Source: Brenneria alni (GTDB lineage: Bacteria; Pseudomonadota; Gammaproteobacteria; Enterobacterales; Enterobacteriaceae). From it: a stretch of DNA of 64,000 nt. The stretch covers positions 1 to 64,000 of the forward strand of contig NZ_MJLZ01000022.1 of the NCBI RefSeq assembly GCF_003666245.1. The letters are read 5' to 3'. The notes under the pieces are model-generated. The model saw only the letters and a program-made list of their open reading frames with translations, ran no database searches and was not told where the DNA came from. Below, one piece after another: positions 6,618 to 53,719 of this stretch. Within the stretch, counting starts at the first letter, position 1; every line of letters starts with the position of its first letter. Both the position numbers and the translations under genes were made by a program.

Positions 6618-6753
6618 GTACGACACATTTCTGTAATTAAACAACAGGATTGTGTGACCTGGTTTAACTTTGTGCAATTGGTCGCCACTTTTCGTGAAAG
6701 TAAACAACAAAAAAAACTTTTGTCTCATGAAAAAATAGGGTAGAGTTAAAGAC

Positions 6754-6860
6754 GTAGGGTACAGAGGTAAGATGTTCTATCTTTCAGACCTTTTACTTCA
6801 CGTAATCGGATTTGGCTGAATATTAGCCGCCCCGGTCAGTTTTGACCGGGGCGTTTTTTA
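6754..6860 (+). ncRNA. spf: Spot 42 small regulatory RNA
   Basis: Begins GTAGGGTACAGAGGTAAGAT and runs through TTCTATCTTTCAGACC and TTACTTCACGTAATCGG, matching E. coli Spot 42 almost base for base over ~107 nt. It ends in the terminator hairpin CCCCGGTCA/TGACCGGGG with a T7 tail. In E. coli it is an Hfq-dependent RNA that represses galK and many carbon-use genes and is itself repressed by CRP-cAMP. The changes in the terminator stem relative to E. coli keep pairing. Its position between polA and engB is also conserved. Confidence 0.96.
6829..6859 (+). terminator. Spot 42 intrinsic terminator
   Basis: CCCCGGTCA (6830-6838) pairs with TGACCGGGG (6843-6851), followed by CGTTTTTTT. It also serves as the Hfq-binding tail of Spot 42. 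Confidence 0.93.
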
Positions 6861-8361: not shown

Positions 8362-8580
8362 ATGAAGCTGTTGCTCCTGCTGCTAGCATTACTGGTTACG
8401 TTTTATCTTTTTTATCTGTTAAGCAAATTATGGCGGCTGTCGAAACGAAAGGCGCAACTACAACGTGCTGTTTTTAAAGGACGGCAGATGTCGTCGGGAC
8501 GAATAAAAAAACGCCGGGAGCGTTTTTCAACGTCACGCAGTGACGGCCTGAAAGGTGAGTCCCAGGGATGGGACGAATAA
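8362..8580 (+). pseudogene. Truncated small membrane-protein gene (DUF2489-like N-terminus)
   Basis: A 72-codon frame starting 4 nt after yihI. Residues 1-21 are a clear membrane anchor (MKLLLLLLALLVTFYLFYLL), followed by a basic, Gln-containing stretch to about residue 40. From there on the frame is translated repeat element (GRIKKRRERFSTS and beyond), and the stop codon lies in the repeat. Some gammaproteobacteria have a DUF2489 membrane protein between yihI and hemN, so I infer this is its N-terminal remnant cut off by the repeat. A true short membrane protein cannot be excluded. Confidence 0.45.
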
Positions 8581-8662
8581 AAAAACGCCGGGAGCGTTTT
8601 TCAACGTCATGCAGTGACGGTTTGAAAGGGAACGGGCGGGAATAGCCCGCTAATAAAAAAGA
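8491..8662 (+). repeat. Three-hairpin intergenic repeat, ~2.3 units, period 74 bp
   Basis: Two units 74 bp apart share AATAAAAAAACGCCGGGAGC. Each holds hairpin H2 (AAAAACGC-CGGGA-GCGTTTTT) and hairpin H3 (CGTCAC-GCA-GTGACG, or its 5-bp variant in the second unit). H1 is GTCCC-AGGGAT-GGGAC between the units and GCGGG-AATAG-CCCGC at the end. The third unit decays into ACT-GGGAGG-AGT, whose loop supplies the hemN ribosome-binding site. The same architecture with other stem sequences recurs at 37.9 and 52.7 kb. Confidence 0.85.
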
Positions 8663-12987: not shown

Positions 12988-13027
12988 AAAAGTTTCCACG
13001 GCAACAAAAAATTTTCAGAAAAAACGT

Positions 13028-13160
13028 CCAGGAGAGATTTTGCAGTTATGCCACGACAACTCCTGGGTGACGGGCATGGATAGCTCGTCGCAAAAACAAA
13101 ACATCTTAAAAGCGGTAATTCCGACAGTAGCCTGAACATCAGGACGGTCAAACTACTGTC
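13028..13160 (-). repeat. Hairpin-forming sequences downstream of glnA
   Basis: Two further inverted repeats fill the glnA-glnL gap. CTACTGTC/GACAGTAG (13123-13130 with 13153-13160) encloses a second small hairpin, CCTGA-ACA-TCAGG. CCAGGAG/CTCCTGG (13028-13034 with 13060-13066) is nearer the terminator. They may protect the glnA 3' end; E. coli has REP elements at this position. Confidence 0.55.
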
Positions 13161-36419: not shown

Positions 36420-37931
36420 ATGCTACATTTATTTGCCGGACTGGATTATTACACCGGTCTGATGTTGATACTGGCTTTGTTGTTTGTACTGTTCTATGAA
36501 GCCATCAATGGTTTTCACGATACAGCCAATGCCGTCGCTACCGTTATTTATACCCGTGCTATGCGAGCGCAGTTCGCTGTTGTCATGGCGGGTGTGTTTA
36601 ACTTTTTTGGCGTGTTGCTGGGGGGATTAAGCGTTGCTTACGCCATTGTCCATCTGCTCCCCACGGATTTATTGCTGAATGTCAGTTCGGCTCATGGTCT
36701 GGCGATGGTTTTTTCCATGCTGCTGGCCGCCATTATCTGGAATCTCGGAACCTGGTATTTTGGGCTTCCTGCCTCAAGTTCACACACGTTGATCGGCGCT
36801 ATTATTGGGATTGGCTTAACCAATGCATTACTGACGGATACGTCGGTGGTGGATGCGCTTAATGTTCCCAAGATGATCGCTATTTTCCTGTCGTTAATTT
36901 TATCGCCGATTGTGGGGATGATTATTGCGGGTCTGATGGTCTTTTTATTACGTCGTTTCTGGAACAACAGTAAAAAACGCCAGCGCGTACACCTCACGCC
37001 AGGCGATCGTGAAAAACAGGATGGTAAACGCAAACCGCCGTTCTGGACGCGTACCGCGCTGATTTTATCTGCGATTGGGGTCAGTTTTTCACATGGCGCG
37101 AATGACGGTCAGAAAGGTATTGGTCTTATTATGCTGGTGCTGATTGGTGTGGCCCCCGCCGGGTTTATCGTCAATATGAACGCGTCCGGCTATGACATCA
37201 GTCGTACCCGAGATTCTGTTGTCAATTTACAGGAGTATTATCAGCAGCACGGTGCGGCATTGGCGCATGTTATCGATCTGTCGCCGCCGCTCATTCCGTC
37301 ACCGGAAAAAACCATTCCGGTAAACGGGAATGGCACGACCGAGTTTCACTGTGACAGCTCCCGCGTCATGATTGCCATTGAGCAGACAATGGATCTGTTG
37401 AACAACCTGAAAAGTTACGAGCAGTTGAATGCGGACGATCGCGGTAATGTTCGCCGATTACTGATGTGTATTGCCGATACCATGGATCGGATTATCAAAC
37501 TGCCGGAAACCCCAACCGATGACAGACGCTACCTGAGCAACCTGCGTAAAGACCTATTGCAGACTATCGAGTATGCGCCGATTTGGATCATCATTGCTGT
37601 CGCGCTCGCTCTTTCATTAGGGACGATGGTAGGCTGGAAGCGTGTGGCAACCACAATTGGTGAGAAAATCGGTAAGAAAGGGATGACGTATGCACAGGGT
37701 GTTTCGGCGCAGGTAACCGCCGCCTTGTCGATTGGCGTCGCCAGTTATACCGGTATGCCGGTTTCCACCACCCACGTGTTGTCATCGGCGGTGGCCGGGA
37801 CGATGATCGTTGATGGCGGTGGTGTTCAGGGGAAAACGGTGAAAAATATCCTGCTGGCCTGGGTACTGACTTTACCTGTATCGTTGCTGTTGTCTGGCTC
37901 ACTGTACTGGCTGGCATTAAAAATCATTTAG
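36420..37931 (+). CDS. pitA: Low-affinity inorganic phosphate transporter PitA
   Basis: A proton symporter for metal-phosphate complexes with about ten membrane segments. The two family signatures are present: [18 protein letters not shown] near the N-terminus and [15 protein letters not shown] in the middle. [15 protein letters not shown] and [18 protein letters not shown] are the repeated helix-loop pairs. It has 503 residues (E. coli 499). The G of its TAG stop is the first base of the tandem repeat that follows. Confidence 0.95.
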
Positions 37932-38198
37932 CGACGGCCCGCAGGGGGATGGGCAGGGATAGCCCATCATAAAAAATTTCCGGGAGAAATTTTCAACGTC
38001 GCTTGCGACGGCCCGAAGGGGGATGGGCAGGGATAGCCCATCATAAAAAATTTCCGGGAGAAATTTTCAACGTCGCTTGCGACGGCCCGAAGGGGGATGG
38101 GCAGGGATAGCCCATCATAAAAAATTTCCGGGAGAAATTTTCAACGTCGCTTGCGACGGCCCGAAGGGGGATGGGCAGGGATAGCCCATCATAAAAAA
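37931..38198 (+). repeat. Three-hairpin repeat, tandem array of 3.6 units of 74 bp
   Basis: Units begin at 37931, 38005, 38079 and 38153 (partial). The first differs from the second by one base; the others are identical by reading. Each unit has H1 GATGGGC-AGGGATA-GCCCATC, H2 AAATTT-CCGGGAG-AAATTT, and H3 CGTCGC-TT-GCGACG spanning the unit junction. On the minus strand H2 is followed by six T, so each unit could end uspB transcripts. Near identity of the copies points to recent amplification. Confidence 0.93.
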
Positions 38199-38225
38199 GG
38201 CGATTCTTACAAGATTCGCCTTTTT
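38193..38225. terminator. Bidirectional pitA/uspB terminator
   Basis: AAAAAAGGCGA and TCGCCTTTTT pair, with TCTT/AAGA extending the stem inward, between convergent pitA and uspB. The A-run belongs to the last partial repeat unit. Confidence 0.8.
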
Positions 38226-38248
38226 ACTTTCTATAACATTCCATTTGT

Positions 38249-38584
38249 TCAATACCAGATCAACATCGCCACTAAACTGATAACCACCAATCCACACAAC
38301 GCGGTCGTCAGCAGAAACTGACCTCGCACCCTTTCGCAGCGGCGCACAAACTCAGGATCATGATGTTCAAGATAACGCTGCGCGTAGATATAACGTACCA
38401 GTCTGATTTGTTTGCTCGGCTGACCATGCGATGTGAAGAAACCACCCCCATCCACGTACTGATAAAGCAACGGGTCACAGTCACGTAATATCAGAAGTAA
38501 CACGCGTAATGAGGAATAATATCGCGCCATATTGATGATGCAGACAACACATAAAGCCCAGAAAAGCGCAAATGAACTGATCAT
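38249..38584 (-). CDS. uspB: Universal stress protein B
   Basis: A 111-residue inner-membrane protein linked to ethanol resistance in stationary phase. Two membrane segments lie at the ends ([15 protein letters not shown] and [20 protein letters not shown]) around the conserved [20 protein letters not shown]. The ATG at 38584 gives the E. coli length; the longer frame adds 21 unconserved residues. It is divergent from uspA. In E. coli it is under sigma-S control. Confidence 0.95.
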
Positions 38585-51600: not shown

Positions 51601-51801
51601 GTGATATCTTCACCCTCTTTATCACGTCAATAGTTACTCTAATCTAACCGCAATTTCATCCTTCGGTGCAGTGGTTGCTGAAGGTGTCTGATAACATCTG
51701 TAGTGCCCTAAATCACAGGGATTTTTTCATATTCATGCGCTCACTTTAACTGTATTTTGGTTATCAATGGCTCTGCCTGATGGGGTAATAAGAGGTTTTT
51801 G
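51601..51801. other. Gap upstream of eamA
   Basis: No gene is seen. AAGAGG at 51790-51795 is the ribosome-binding site of eamA. CCTAAATCACAGGGATTTTT (about 51708-51727) is only a weak hairpin. Confidence 0.4.
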
Positions 51802-52719
51802 ATGTCGGTAAAAGACAGGCTGCTCGCACTTTGCGTCGTGATTTTATGGGGCGTGAACTTCGTCATGATTAAGGTTGGTTTGCAGGATATGCCGCCTTTT
51901 TTACTGGCGGGGCTGCGTTTTTCGCTGGTGGCGCTCCCGGCTATTTTCTTTGTGCCCGCGCCCTGCGTCCCTTTCCGCTGGCTGCTGGCCTACGGTATGA
52001 CCATCAGTTTCGGCCAGTTCGCTTTTCTGTTCTGCGCCATCAAGCTAGGGATGCCGGCGGGCATTGCTTCGCTGGTGCTTCAGGCGCAGGCGTTTTTTAC
52101 ACTGCTTATCGGCGCTGTGCTACTGTCGGAAAAACTTAAATGGAACCATATCACCGGTATGCTGGTGGCGGCGCTGGGGGTAGTTGTACTGGCTGAAGGT
52201 CGGCTGGCTGCACAGACGGCGTCCGGCATGACGCTGACCACGCTACTCCTCACGCTGGCCGGTGCGCTGTCCTGGGCGTTCGGTAATATCAGCAACAAGA
52301 CGATCATGACTCAGAACGGTAACGTAAAAATCATGTCGCTGGTGGTATGGAGTGCGCTGATCCCCATCTTGCCTTTCTTTGCCTGTTCGTGGCTGTTTGA
52401 GGGTGAAGCGGTCATTCTCTCCAGCCTGGCGAATATTCAACTGCCTACCATACTGTCACTGTTTTATCTGGCTTTTGCCGCCACGATAGTCGGTTACGGC
52501 ATATGGGGAAATTTGCTGGCGCGCTACGAAACCTGGCGCGTGGCGCCGCTCTCTTTGCTGGTGCCGGTGACCGGTCTAATCAGTGCGGCGGTATTCCTCG
52601 ACGAATCCCTTTCCGCCTTACAGGTAGTCGGTGCGCTGATGATTATGCTGGGGTTGTTGATCAATGTGTTTGGCGCCCGTCTGCGATCATTGAGGTTGCT
52701 CCATAGGCGGGCAGGATAG
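51802..52719 (+). CDS. eamA: EamA (YdeD) cysteine/O-acetylserine exporter
   Basis: A DMT-superfamily exporter with ten membrane segments made of two EamA repeats. It matches E. coli EamA closely: VILWGVNFVMIKVGLQDMPP, FGQFAFLFCAIKLGMPAGIA, SLVLQAQAFFTLL and RYETWRVAPLSLLVPVTGL. E. coli EamA exports cysteine-pathway metabolites. The ATG at 51802 follows AAGAGG; a TTG one codon earlier is less likely. The last residues HRRAG and the stop codon are encoded by the repeat element that begins at about 52703. Confidence 0.88.
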   Translation: MSVKDRLLALCVVILWGVNFVMIKVGLQDMPPFLLAGLRFSLVALPAIFFVPAPCVPFRWLLAYGMTISFGQFAFLFCAIKLGMPAGIASLVLQAQAFFTLLIGAVLLSEKLKWNHITGMLVAALGVVVLAEGRLAAQTASGMTLTTLLLTLAGALSWAFGNISNKTIMTQNGNVKIMSLVVWSALIPILPFFACSWLFEGEAVILSSLANIQLPTILSLFYLAFAATIVGYGIWGNLLARYETWRVAPLSLLVPVTGLISAAVFLDESLSALQVVGALMIMLGLLINVFGARLRSLRLLHRRAG

Positions 52720-52802
52720 CCCGCCATAAAAAATCGCCGGGAGCGATTTAAAACGTCGCTTGCGACGGCCCGGAGGGTGGCGGGCAGGATAGCCCGCCAT
52801 AA
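52703..52802 (+). repeat. Three-hairpin repeat, 1.4 units, period 73 bp
   Basis: H1 GGCGGGC-AGGATA-GCCCGCC occurs twice, 73 bp apart. Between them are H2 AAATCGC-CGGGA-GCGATTT and H3 CGTCGC-TT-GCGACG. The order and spacing equal those of the array at 37.9 kb while H1 and H2 stems differ on both arms. It supplies the eamA stop codon and lies 3 bp before the end of the convergent deacetylase gene. Confidence 0.9.
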
Positions 52803-52804
52803 TC

Positions 52805-53719
52805 TCAGAATTTGTCATAGGTGACCGGCCCCGGATAGGGCGGCATGGGTTCTTCTCGCAGCTTGACCAGCCCTTTGGCGTATACCTTATTGACGTGGGC
52901 CGCTATCTCCTCAAGAGAGGCGAACCAGACGCCGCCGCGCGCCTGCATATATTCAATAAAGCGCACCGTTTCGTGCCAGCGGGCCAGTCGCCCGGTGACA
53001 AAGGGGTGCCACACCGCCACCACCAGCCCGCCGTACTCCCACATGGCGTCGAACTCCGCCTTATAGACTCCGATCGCCTCCTGCGGCGAGCGGATCGGCA
53101 TCACGTAGTCGATGTCGCTCATATGTACGTAAGGGGGCCAGTCGTCCATCGCCCAGTGGGTGGGCAGCTCCACCAGATGGCCTTTTTTCCCGCGCAACAG
53201 GTAAGGCATGTCGTCGCCCATTAGCGAGGCATCGTACTGAAATCCTTCATCGATCAGCAGGTCGGTGGTGGCCGGGGAAAAGTTATACAGCGGGGCGCGG
53301 AATCCGCGTGGCCGTTTGCCGGTATGCCGTTCGATAATCTCAATCGCCTTACGTAGCCAAAAGCGCTCTTCGGCTTCGCTCAGTTCGTTGACGTGCTCAT
53401 GGATGTAACCGTGGTGACCCACTTCATGACCGTCCCTGACGATGGCCGCCACCATGTCCGGGTAGCGTTCGATGCACCATGCCGGGACAAAAAAGGTCTG
53501 CTTAAGGCCCAGCTCGCGGTACGTTTGCAGGATGCGGGGTACGCCGATCTGCGGATCGTATTGCAGTGTTGAAAGGGTGCTCACCCGCTTATAGCTGTCT
53601 GCCGGGCGTTGCAGATGGAGAAAGCTGTCCACATCCACGTCAAAGGTGATCGCCACGGCGCAGCGTGCTCCGTTGGGCCAGGGGATGGGGTTTTTGATCA
53701 TACTGTGTTTTGTCGTCAT
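52805..53719 (-). CDS. Polysaccharide deacetylase-family hydrolase (PuuE/allantoinase-like)
   Basis: A 304-residue protein of the NodB/CE4 fold without signal peptide, hence cytoplasmic. The metal site is TFDVDVDS (Asp) and HEVGHHGYIHE (two His); GFRAPLYNFS and HPFVTGRLARWHETVRFIEY follow. The C-terminal part resembles the allantoinase PuuE more than peptidoglycan or chitin deacetylases. It is last in the long minus-strand run with ABC importers and an amidohydrolase, which supports a ring-opening role on a cyclic ureide. The substrate is unproven. Confidence 0.75.
   Translation of the reverse strand: MTTKHSMIKNPIPWPNGARCAVAITFDVDVDSFLHLQRPADSYKRVSTLSTLQYDPQIGVPRILQTYRELGLKQTFFVPAWCIERYPDMVAAIVRDGHEVGHHGYIHEHVNELSEAEERFWLRKAIEIIERHTGKRPRGFRAPLYNFSPATTDLLIDEGFQYDASLMGDDMPYLLRGKKGHLVELPTHWAMDDWPPYVHMSDIDYVMPIRSPQEAIGVYKAEFDAMWEYGGLVVAVWHPFVTGRLARWHETVRFIEYMQARGGVWFASLEEIAAHVNKVYAKGLVKLREEPMPPYPGPVTYDKF

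Follow-up and report, generated by a model that had tools for sequence, protein, structure and literature searches.

A described relative of the repeat analysed here is the RtT RNA of Rfam (RF00391), whose consensus runs through a CGNCGC..GCGNCG stem and a GCCCGAAGGGC stem to a last stem ending in GAGTAAUCC. RtT-type RNA is not known to have a settled role. Other short repeats also bear comparison. ERIC/IRU/RU-1 elements are dispersed and non-coding, with the 127-bp ERIC possessing terminal inverted repeats, and inserts of about 70 bp in ERIC have reportedly been described. YPAL/RU-2 elements measure 168 bp, and RU-2 begins like GCTGACAAAG-type ends and contains its own GGAT hairpins, according to an excerpt of PMC2759123. 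For REPs, which are small palindromic repeats, a length of 20-40 bp is given (PMC3733652, in excerpt), and E. coli boxC is given as 56 bp in a passage of PMC2267715.

The window, meaning the entire 64,000-nucleotide stretch of Brenneria alni DNA that was analysed, contains several units of a four-hairpin repeat some 80 bases long. This repeat is probably a non-autonomous mobile module, the ATAAAAAA-ended Brenneria/Pectobacterium variant of an order-wide family that includes RtT. On our best reading, that family takes in the RtT RNA of Rfam as well as the E. coli module located between the rrn terminators, the latter being what we take to be the rrnB T1-T2 spacer. Copies of the repeat were searched for with a covariance model, R1, and the features of the window are as follows.

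37931..38198, + strand: tandem array of a truncated first unit and three units of 74 bp (from the R1 alignment and the adjoining ORF stop)
38121..38141, + strand: hairpin H2 of the last array unit, loop CGGGA (from the fold and pair counts)
38145..38158, + strand: hairpin H3 of the last array unit, G(CTTG)C loop
38160..38169, + strand: hairpin H4 of the last array unit, CCC-GAA-GGG (from the fold and pair counts)
38170..38190, + strand: hairpin H1 of the last array unit, loop AGGGATA, with GGA in the loop
38191..38198, + strand: right junction ATAAAAAA of the array, also found in seven relatives without a visible array
38199..38225, + strand: GC-rich hairpin with a T tract, resembling an intrinsic terminator, which the array adjoins
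8502..8660, + strand: pair of units separating a small ORF from a presumably hemN-like one
52709..52807, + strand: one full unit (52725-52807) after a partial unit from about 52709, between two convergent ORFs
13016..13098, + strand: decayed copy (R1, 34.6 bits), absent from the first-pass annotation

Immediately before the array is the stop of a 503-codon ORF, presumably a pit-like phosphate transporter. R1 aligns a truncated unit at 37916-37967 (20 bits), followed by full units at 37968-38041, 38042-38115 and 38116-38199 (74-84 bp) that are nearly identical to each other. The units at 8.5, 37.9 and 52.7 kb picked out in the first-pass annotation are real: R1 places them, and the pattern CCGGGAGNNNTTTTCAACGTC with up to three mismatches matches the window six times against 0.07 expected from shuffling. 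That annotation saw three hairpins per unit, having overlooked H4; structure prediction for the last unit gives four (z -3.2 versus shuffles). A free single copy has the order ATAAAAAA-H2-H3-H4-H1-ATAAAAAA, and because it is bounded by ATAAAAAA on both sides, neighbours in an array have an A tract in common. Free units terminate in these direct ATAAAAAA copies and, unlike ERIC, not in inverted repeats.

Two ORFs of the window run into repeat units. About the last 25 codons of the 72-codon ORF at 8362-8580, located between ORFs assumed to be yihI-like and hemN-like (the latter also flanking the 8502-8660 units), derive from the first unit at 8502, and its stop falls in the next A tract; the versions in relatives are not alike. 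The ORF at 51799-52719, which we take to be an EamA-like transporter, stops within the partial unit, with its last codons and stop coming from the repeat. Elsewhere in the window, 6628-6860 corresponds to Spot 42 RNA, ahead of which the soft-rot 3' UTR family RF02740 is matched.

The first-pass annotation had also proposed a covariance-model search for further copies, and these were found in number. R1 gives 108 matches in the 4.13 Mb genome that contains the window (E<=0.01), and at least 46-113 in each of eight other Brenneria genomes (E<=0.001). In the named collection, which may lack the closest records to the window, the exact H1-plus-tail pattern GGCAGGGATAGCCCNNCATAAAAAA matches 17 stretches, and all of these belong to Brenneria or Pectobacterium. 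Across the GTDB order, R1 matches at least 112 of 394 genomes and at least 48 of 115 genera with stricter filters (E<=1e-5). For E. coli, 3950 of 5426 genomes match the module, with a median of two places per matching genome and a highest count of nine.

Genomic context was determined for the 90 of 108 own-genome matches scoring at least 30.6 bits, which form 75 clusters, 72 of them located; surrounding genes were called with a simple codon-usage caller. Free copies with ATAAAAAA ends make up 53 of the 72, while 11 are housed in ERIC-like repeats and eight in a YPAL-like repeat, class labels that were assigned by eye. The ERIC-like copies (the flanking sequence is presumably ERIC-like) carry one or two modules, at two separate insert positions, one of which has an empty counterpart: at the left position module-free copies read GGCAAGTGAGTGAATCCCGATGAGC and filled copies ..AAGGA-CAAATTCG...CTCATTA-ATCCCGATGAGC. 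The YPAL/RU-2 host repeats have GCTGACAAAG-like ends and differ from the module in both their ends and their targets. YPAL terminal sequence is present around embedded copies and absent at the free units examined. In other genera, the module follows 5S rRNA in operons of the E. coli type (L068, L069, L188), or sits in tRNA gene 3' pieces as TTCGA-CAAA...GTA-ATCC (L078, L197, L205). Both modules of one E. coli record (R1 scores of 73.6 and 42.5 bits) lie between 5S 3'-end pieces, GAGTAGGA-CAAA...CATA-AACTGCC. Judged by eye, the insertion point common to these contexts is GA/A. At L233, an E. coli rrn operon that includes a tRNA-Thr carries a pair of unannotated modules (583-658 and 989-1071), with GGA loops in one and GAA loops in the other.

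A comparison to RtT shows the same order of stems in the Rfam consensus and in the module. Tandem units accompany a tRNA 3' piece at L197 and L205, and a tRNA 3' piece is likewise found at L078. Furthermore, the tandem GA motif reported in RtT (PMC7657543, in excerpt) fits CGAG..GAG at the H1 base in GAGTA-tailed module copies. L078:1459-1592 matches RF00391 at 45.2 bits against a gathering score of 45, and is the sole RtT match among 34 R1-found loci scanned at that score. The window, in contrast, gave no RtT match at gathering score, nor did 37850-38300 at E<=1; its three main copies are located between protein ORFs rather than tRNA genes, end in ATAAAAAA, and differ from the RtT consensus in the H1 loop, with GGA in place of GAA. 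Kinship with RtT is hence suggested by the common architecture, by model R1 and by one barely passing match of 34 loci. The first-pass annotation could not name the repeat as a described family; a described relative exists in RtT, although the window units themselves fall short of it. The E. coli rrn-terminator module displays the same four hairpins as the window units, but sits in rrn operons, in few copies, and is unannotated in the record examined. At L197 and L205, which represent other families of the order, a tandem tRNA 3' piece, a terminator and the module follow tRNA genes in an RtT-type layout.

A single covariance model unites RtT, the rrn terminator spacer, the ERIC- and YPAL-like inserts and an unnamed soft-rot repeat, all described apart before. 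Within the open-licence literature we found no work linking RtT, the rrn spacer and the ERIC/YPAL inserts, nor a name for the repeat in Brenneria, although this is weak evidence of absence.

The stem covariation noted in the first pass is real. Of the stem cells in 23 units from the own genome (aligned with MAFFT), 93.1% pair (83.8% when shuffled, 42.9-50.5% in slid controls) and 46 are changed on both sides (12.7 shuffled). The covariation score is 0.284 versus 0.130 shuffled, and double-sided changes occur at 13 of 23 pairs. In a diverse alignment of 48 units (33 from other genomes and 15 own, embedded copies included), 88.3% of stem cells pair (72.0% shuffled, 40.3-47.9% slid), 180 cells are changed on both sides (54.3 shuffled), the score is 0.439 versus 0.160, and double-sided changes affect 19 of 23 pairs; these controls, like those of the smaller alignment, ignore shared ancestry, and the structure tested was itself drawn from the same sequences. 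Pairing in the 48-unit alignment reaches 97.9% in H2, 97.5% in H3 and 96.5% in H4, compared to 67.6% in H1, where variation in loop length shifts part of the alignment out of register.

The first-pass annotation had listed a non-autonomous mobile unit among its options, and such behaviour is borne out by an orthologous site at 37.9 kb that holds an array in some genomes and shows none in others. The site is filled by an array in the own genome and in G008, while no array was seen in G001-G007, all seven of which carry ATAAAAAA and the terminator; the G001 sequence might hold a remnant. The array-free relatives could also reflect loss. Gain is favoured because the best flanking match is to G008, the nearest relative by this measure (87%). 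The two arrays have been homogenised separately, the three own units reading CCGGGAG and the two full G008 units CCTGGAG. Intact or decayed copies occupy the hemN site in nine of nine genomes, with arms GTCTC/GAGAC in some and GTCCC/GGGAC here. A strong, terminator-like hairpin adjoins the right end of 19 of the 53 free clusters and the left end of two (Fisher 4.4e-5, shuffled mean 1.3); the right side lacks a strong hairpin in the other 34. We propose that a putative trans-acting enzyme would recognise the folded strand, with insertion at A tracts (stop codons, terminators) or GA/A sites, and that arrays may then grow and homogenise through recombination or slippage. Less certainly, sense transcripts might present the H2 and H1 GGA loops to a CsrA/RsmA dimer.

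A bias relative to replication was not supported. Clusters run against the replication direction in 32 of 48 cases in the complete genome G001 (p 0.03), in 11 of 23 in G007, and in 43 of 71 when pooled (p 0.096). These counts draw on 67 of 126 G001 matches (at least 60.5 bits, leaving out seven at 60.3-60.4) and 28 of 92 G007 matches, with the replication origin set from a presumably dnaA-like sequence at base 1 and sampled GC skew.

The loops of the module suggest a possible partner. Among 160 distinct units, GGA is found in the loops of intact helices for 115 of 139 H2 and 82 of 96 H1 hairpins (an intact H1 was found in only these 96 units), against 0 of 149 for H3 and 10 of 147 for H4. With repeated places included, the counts become 127/151, 92/106, 0/161 and 10/159, respectively. 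In 26 order-wide copies a GGA loop was scored in H2 of 25 and H1 of 23, the three H1 misses being cases where H4 was picked instead. The CsrA SELEX consensus is RUACARGGAUGU with GGA in a hairpin loop (excerpt of PMC7492729), and H1 of the 26 copies agrees with it at 12 of 12 positions in two and at 11 of 12 in six. Permuting the arm pairs of 23 hairpins with loops kept (the three misses lie outside these controls) leads to 0.11 such matches expected and a maximum of two, compared to eight seen. A harder control, in which the two innermost pairs are kept too, raises the expectation to 1.8 with a maximum of seven in 3000 runs, indicating that much of the CsrA match is the conserved loop itself. 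Genus g22 contributes five of the eight best matches, with the other three from three further families; with a single g22 copy retained, the harder control expects 0.9 against 4 of 19 (p 0.008). A csrA gene is present in 23 of 23 genomes tested.

The pair of GGA hairpin loops expected of a CsrA-type two-site target is thus found in the module, and is lost in the G011 subfamily as well as in one of two E. coli rrn copies. In G011 (L074, L209-L230), 15 of 23 copies have GNNA, GAAA, AAA or similar loops with the stems kept, as judged by eye; H1 is without GGA in all but one, and csrA is present. This loop swap with retained stems indicates that structure seems to matter in itself and that GGA is dispensable in places. 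Candidate CsrA docking is offered as a lead, predicted from sequence, and is the most interesting reading left. One extended version, which we regard as doubtful, would have a single family of RtT-like modules, placed between the rrn terminators, behind tRNA genes and within ERIC- and YPAL-like repeats, serve as mobile, preformed sites for CsrA/RsmA docking, predicted to spread two-site GGA hairpins across the order and to tie CsrA availability to stable-RNA and mRNA transcription. If CsrA binds the module, the role of RtT-type RNA becomes directly testable. Since the T1-T2 cassette is a component of common expression vectors, the E. coli copy could be tested at once.

Should a predicted two-site CsrA/RsmA-binding RNA, acting as sponge or in host-transcript control, be the main function of the element, the retention of GGA in H2 and H1 but not in H3 and H4, the close H1 consensus matches in 8 of 26 copies and the csrA gene in all 23 genomes tested would be accounted for. 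We consider this a tentative possibility, and one compatible with mobility; the harder control, the weight of one genus among the best matches and the loop losses described above weaken it. So does the orientation of Brenneria free copies with co-directional flanks, 22 of which are antisense and 10 sense (p 0.05). Wobble pairs speak in the same direction: G.T and A.C number 37 and 47 in the own-genome copies (alignment A3), 22 and 15 in A2, and 10 and 2 in A4, the only alignment biased to the sense strand. The near equality in the own copies is what the upkeep of palindromes on both DNA strands would predict. Fold energy did not tell the strands of four copies apart (z -3.2 to -5.0 on both). 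For the Brenneria copies, action at the RNA level finds no support in the orientation or wobble counts, and the selection on a transcribed RNA suggested in the first pass is not established. The same wobble counts would suit an element without function, whose palindromes would be kept perfect during replication as template switching corrects quasi-palindromes, and whose arrays would grow by slippage, with covariation as a by-product. Nearly all stem cells are Watson-Crick with wobble rare, two H2 pairs show frequent AU/UA flips, and arrays are homogenised within genomes. We nevertheless find this unlikely, as it leaves unexplained the dispersal, the one-sided terminator abutment, the common insertion points and the selective retention of GGA in two of the four loops.

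A role as transcription terminator or mRNA 3'-end stabiliser could draw on the A and T tracts flanking H2, and on the 9 of 15 free clusters with a sense upstream gene that begin within 36 nt of the gene end. It appears improbable, given that 19 of 53 free clusters already run into a strong hairpin distinct from the unit, and that the upstream gene is on the opposite strand in 36 of 51. Finally, the module resembles GTAG/CGTC REPs in being short, palindromic, intergenic and multi-copy. Its four stems, the lack of an unpaired GTAG or CGTC tag (CGTC is paired inside H3) and its length beyond that described for REPs make it extremely improbable that the module is a REP-type element mobilised by a RAYT. 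The REP-associated partner transposase that the first pass had thought worth seeking was not found, with PF01797 (Y1_Tnp) giving 0 matches in the own genome and control matches in 5 of 14 genomes; on this result REP/RAYT identity was rejected.

Individual copies also neighbour genes of interest. An opposite-strand module directly adjoins the end of the GcvB sRNA gene (L186:1310-1584). Tandem copies lie upstream of a dapA-like ORF (L002:1501-1729, L061, L062, L183, L184), and similarity of the flanks, compared by eye, points to apparent orthologs of the own-genome copy before this ORF in G001, G004, G146 and G217. The dapA-like site is seemingly kept, again by eye, in Brenneria and two genomes of another genus (g36).
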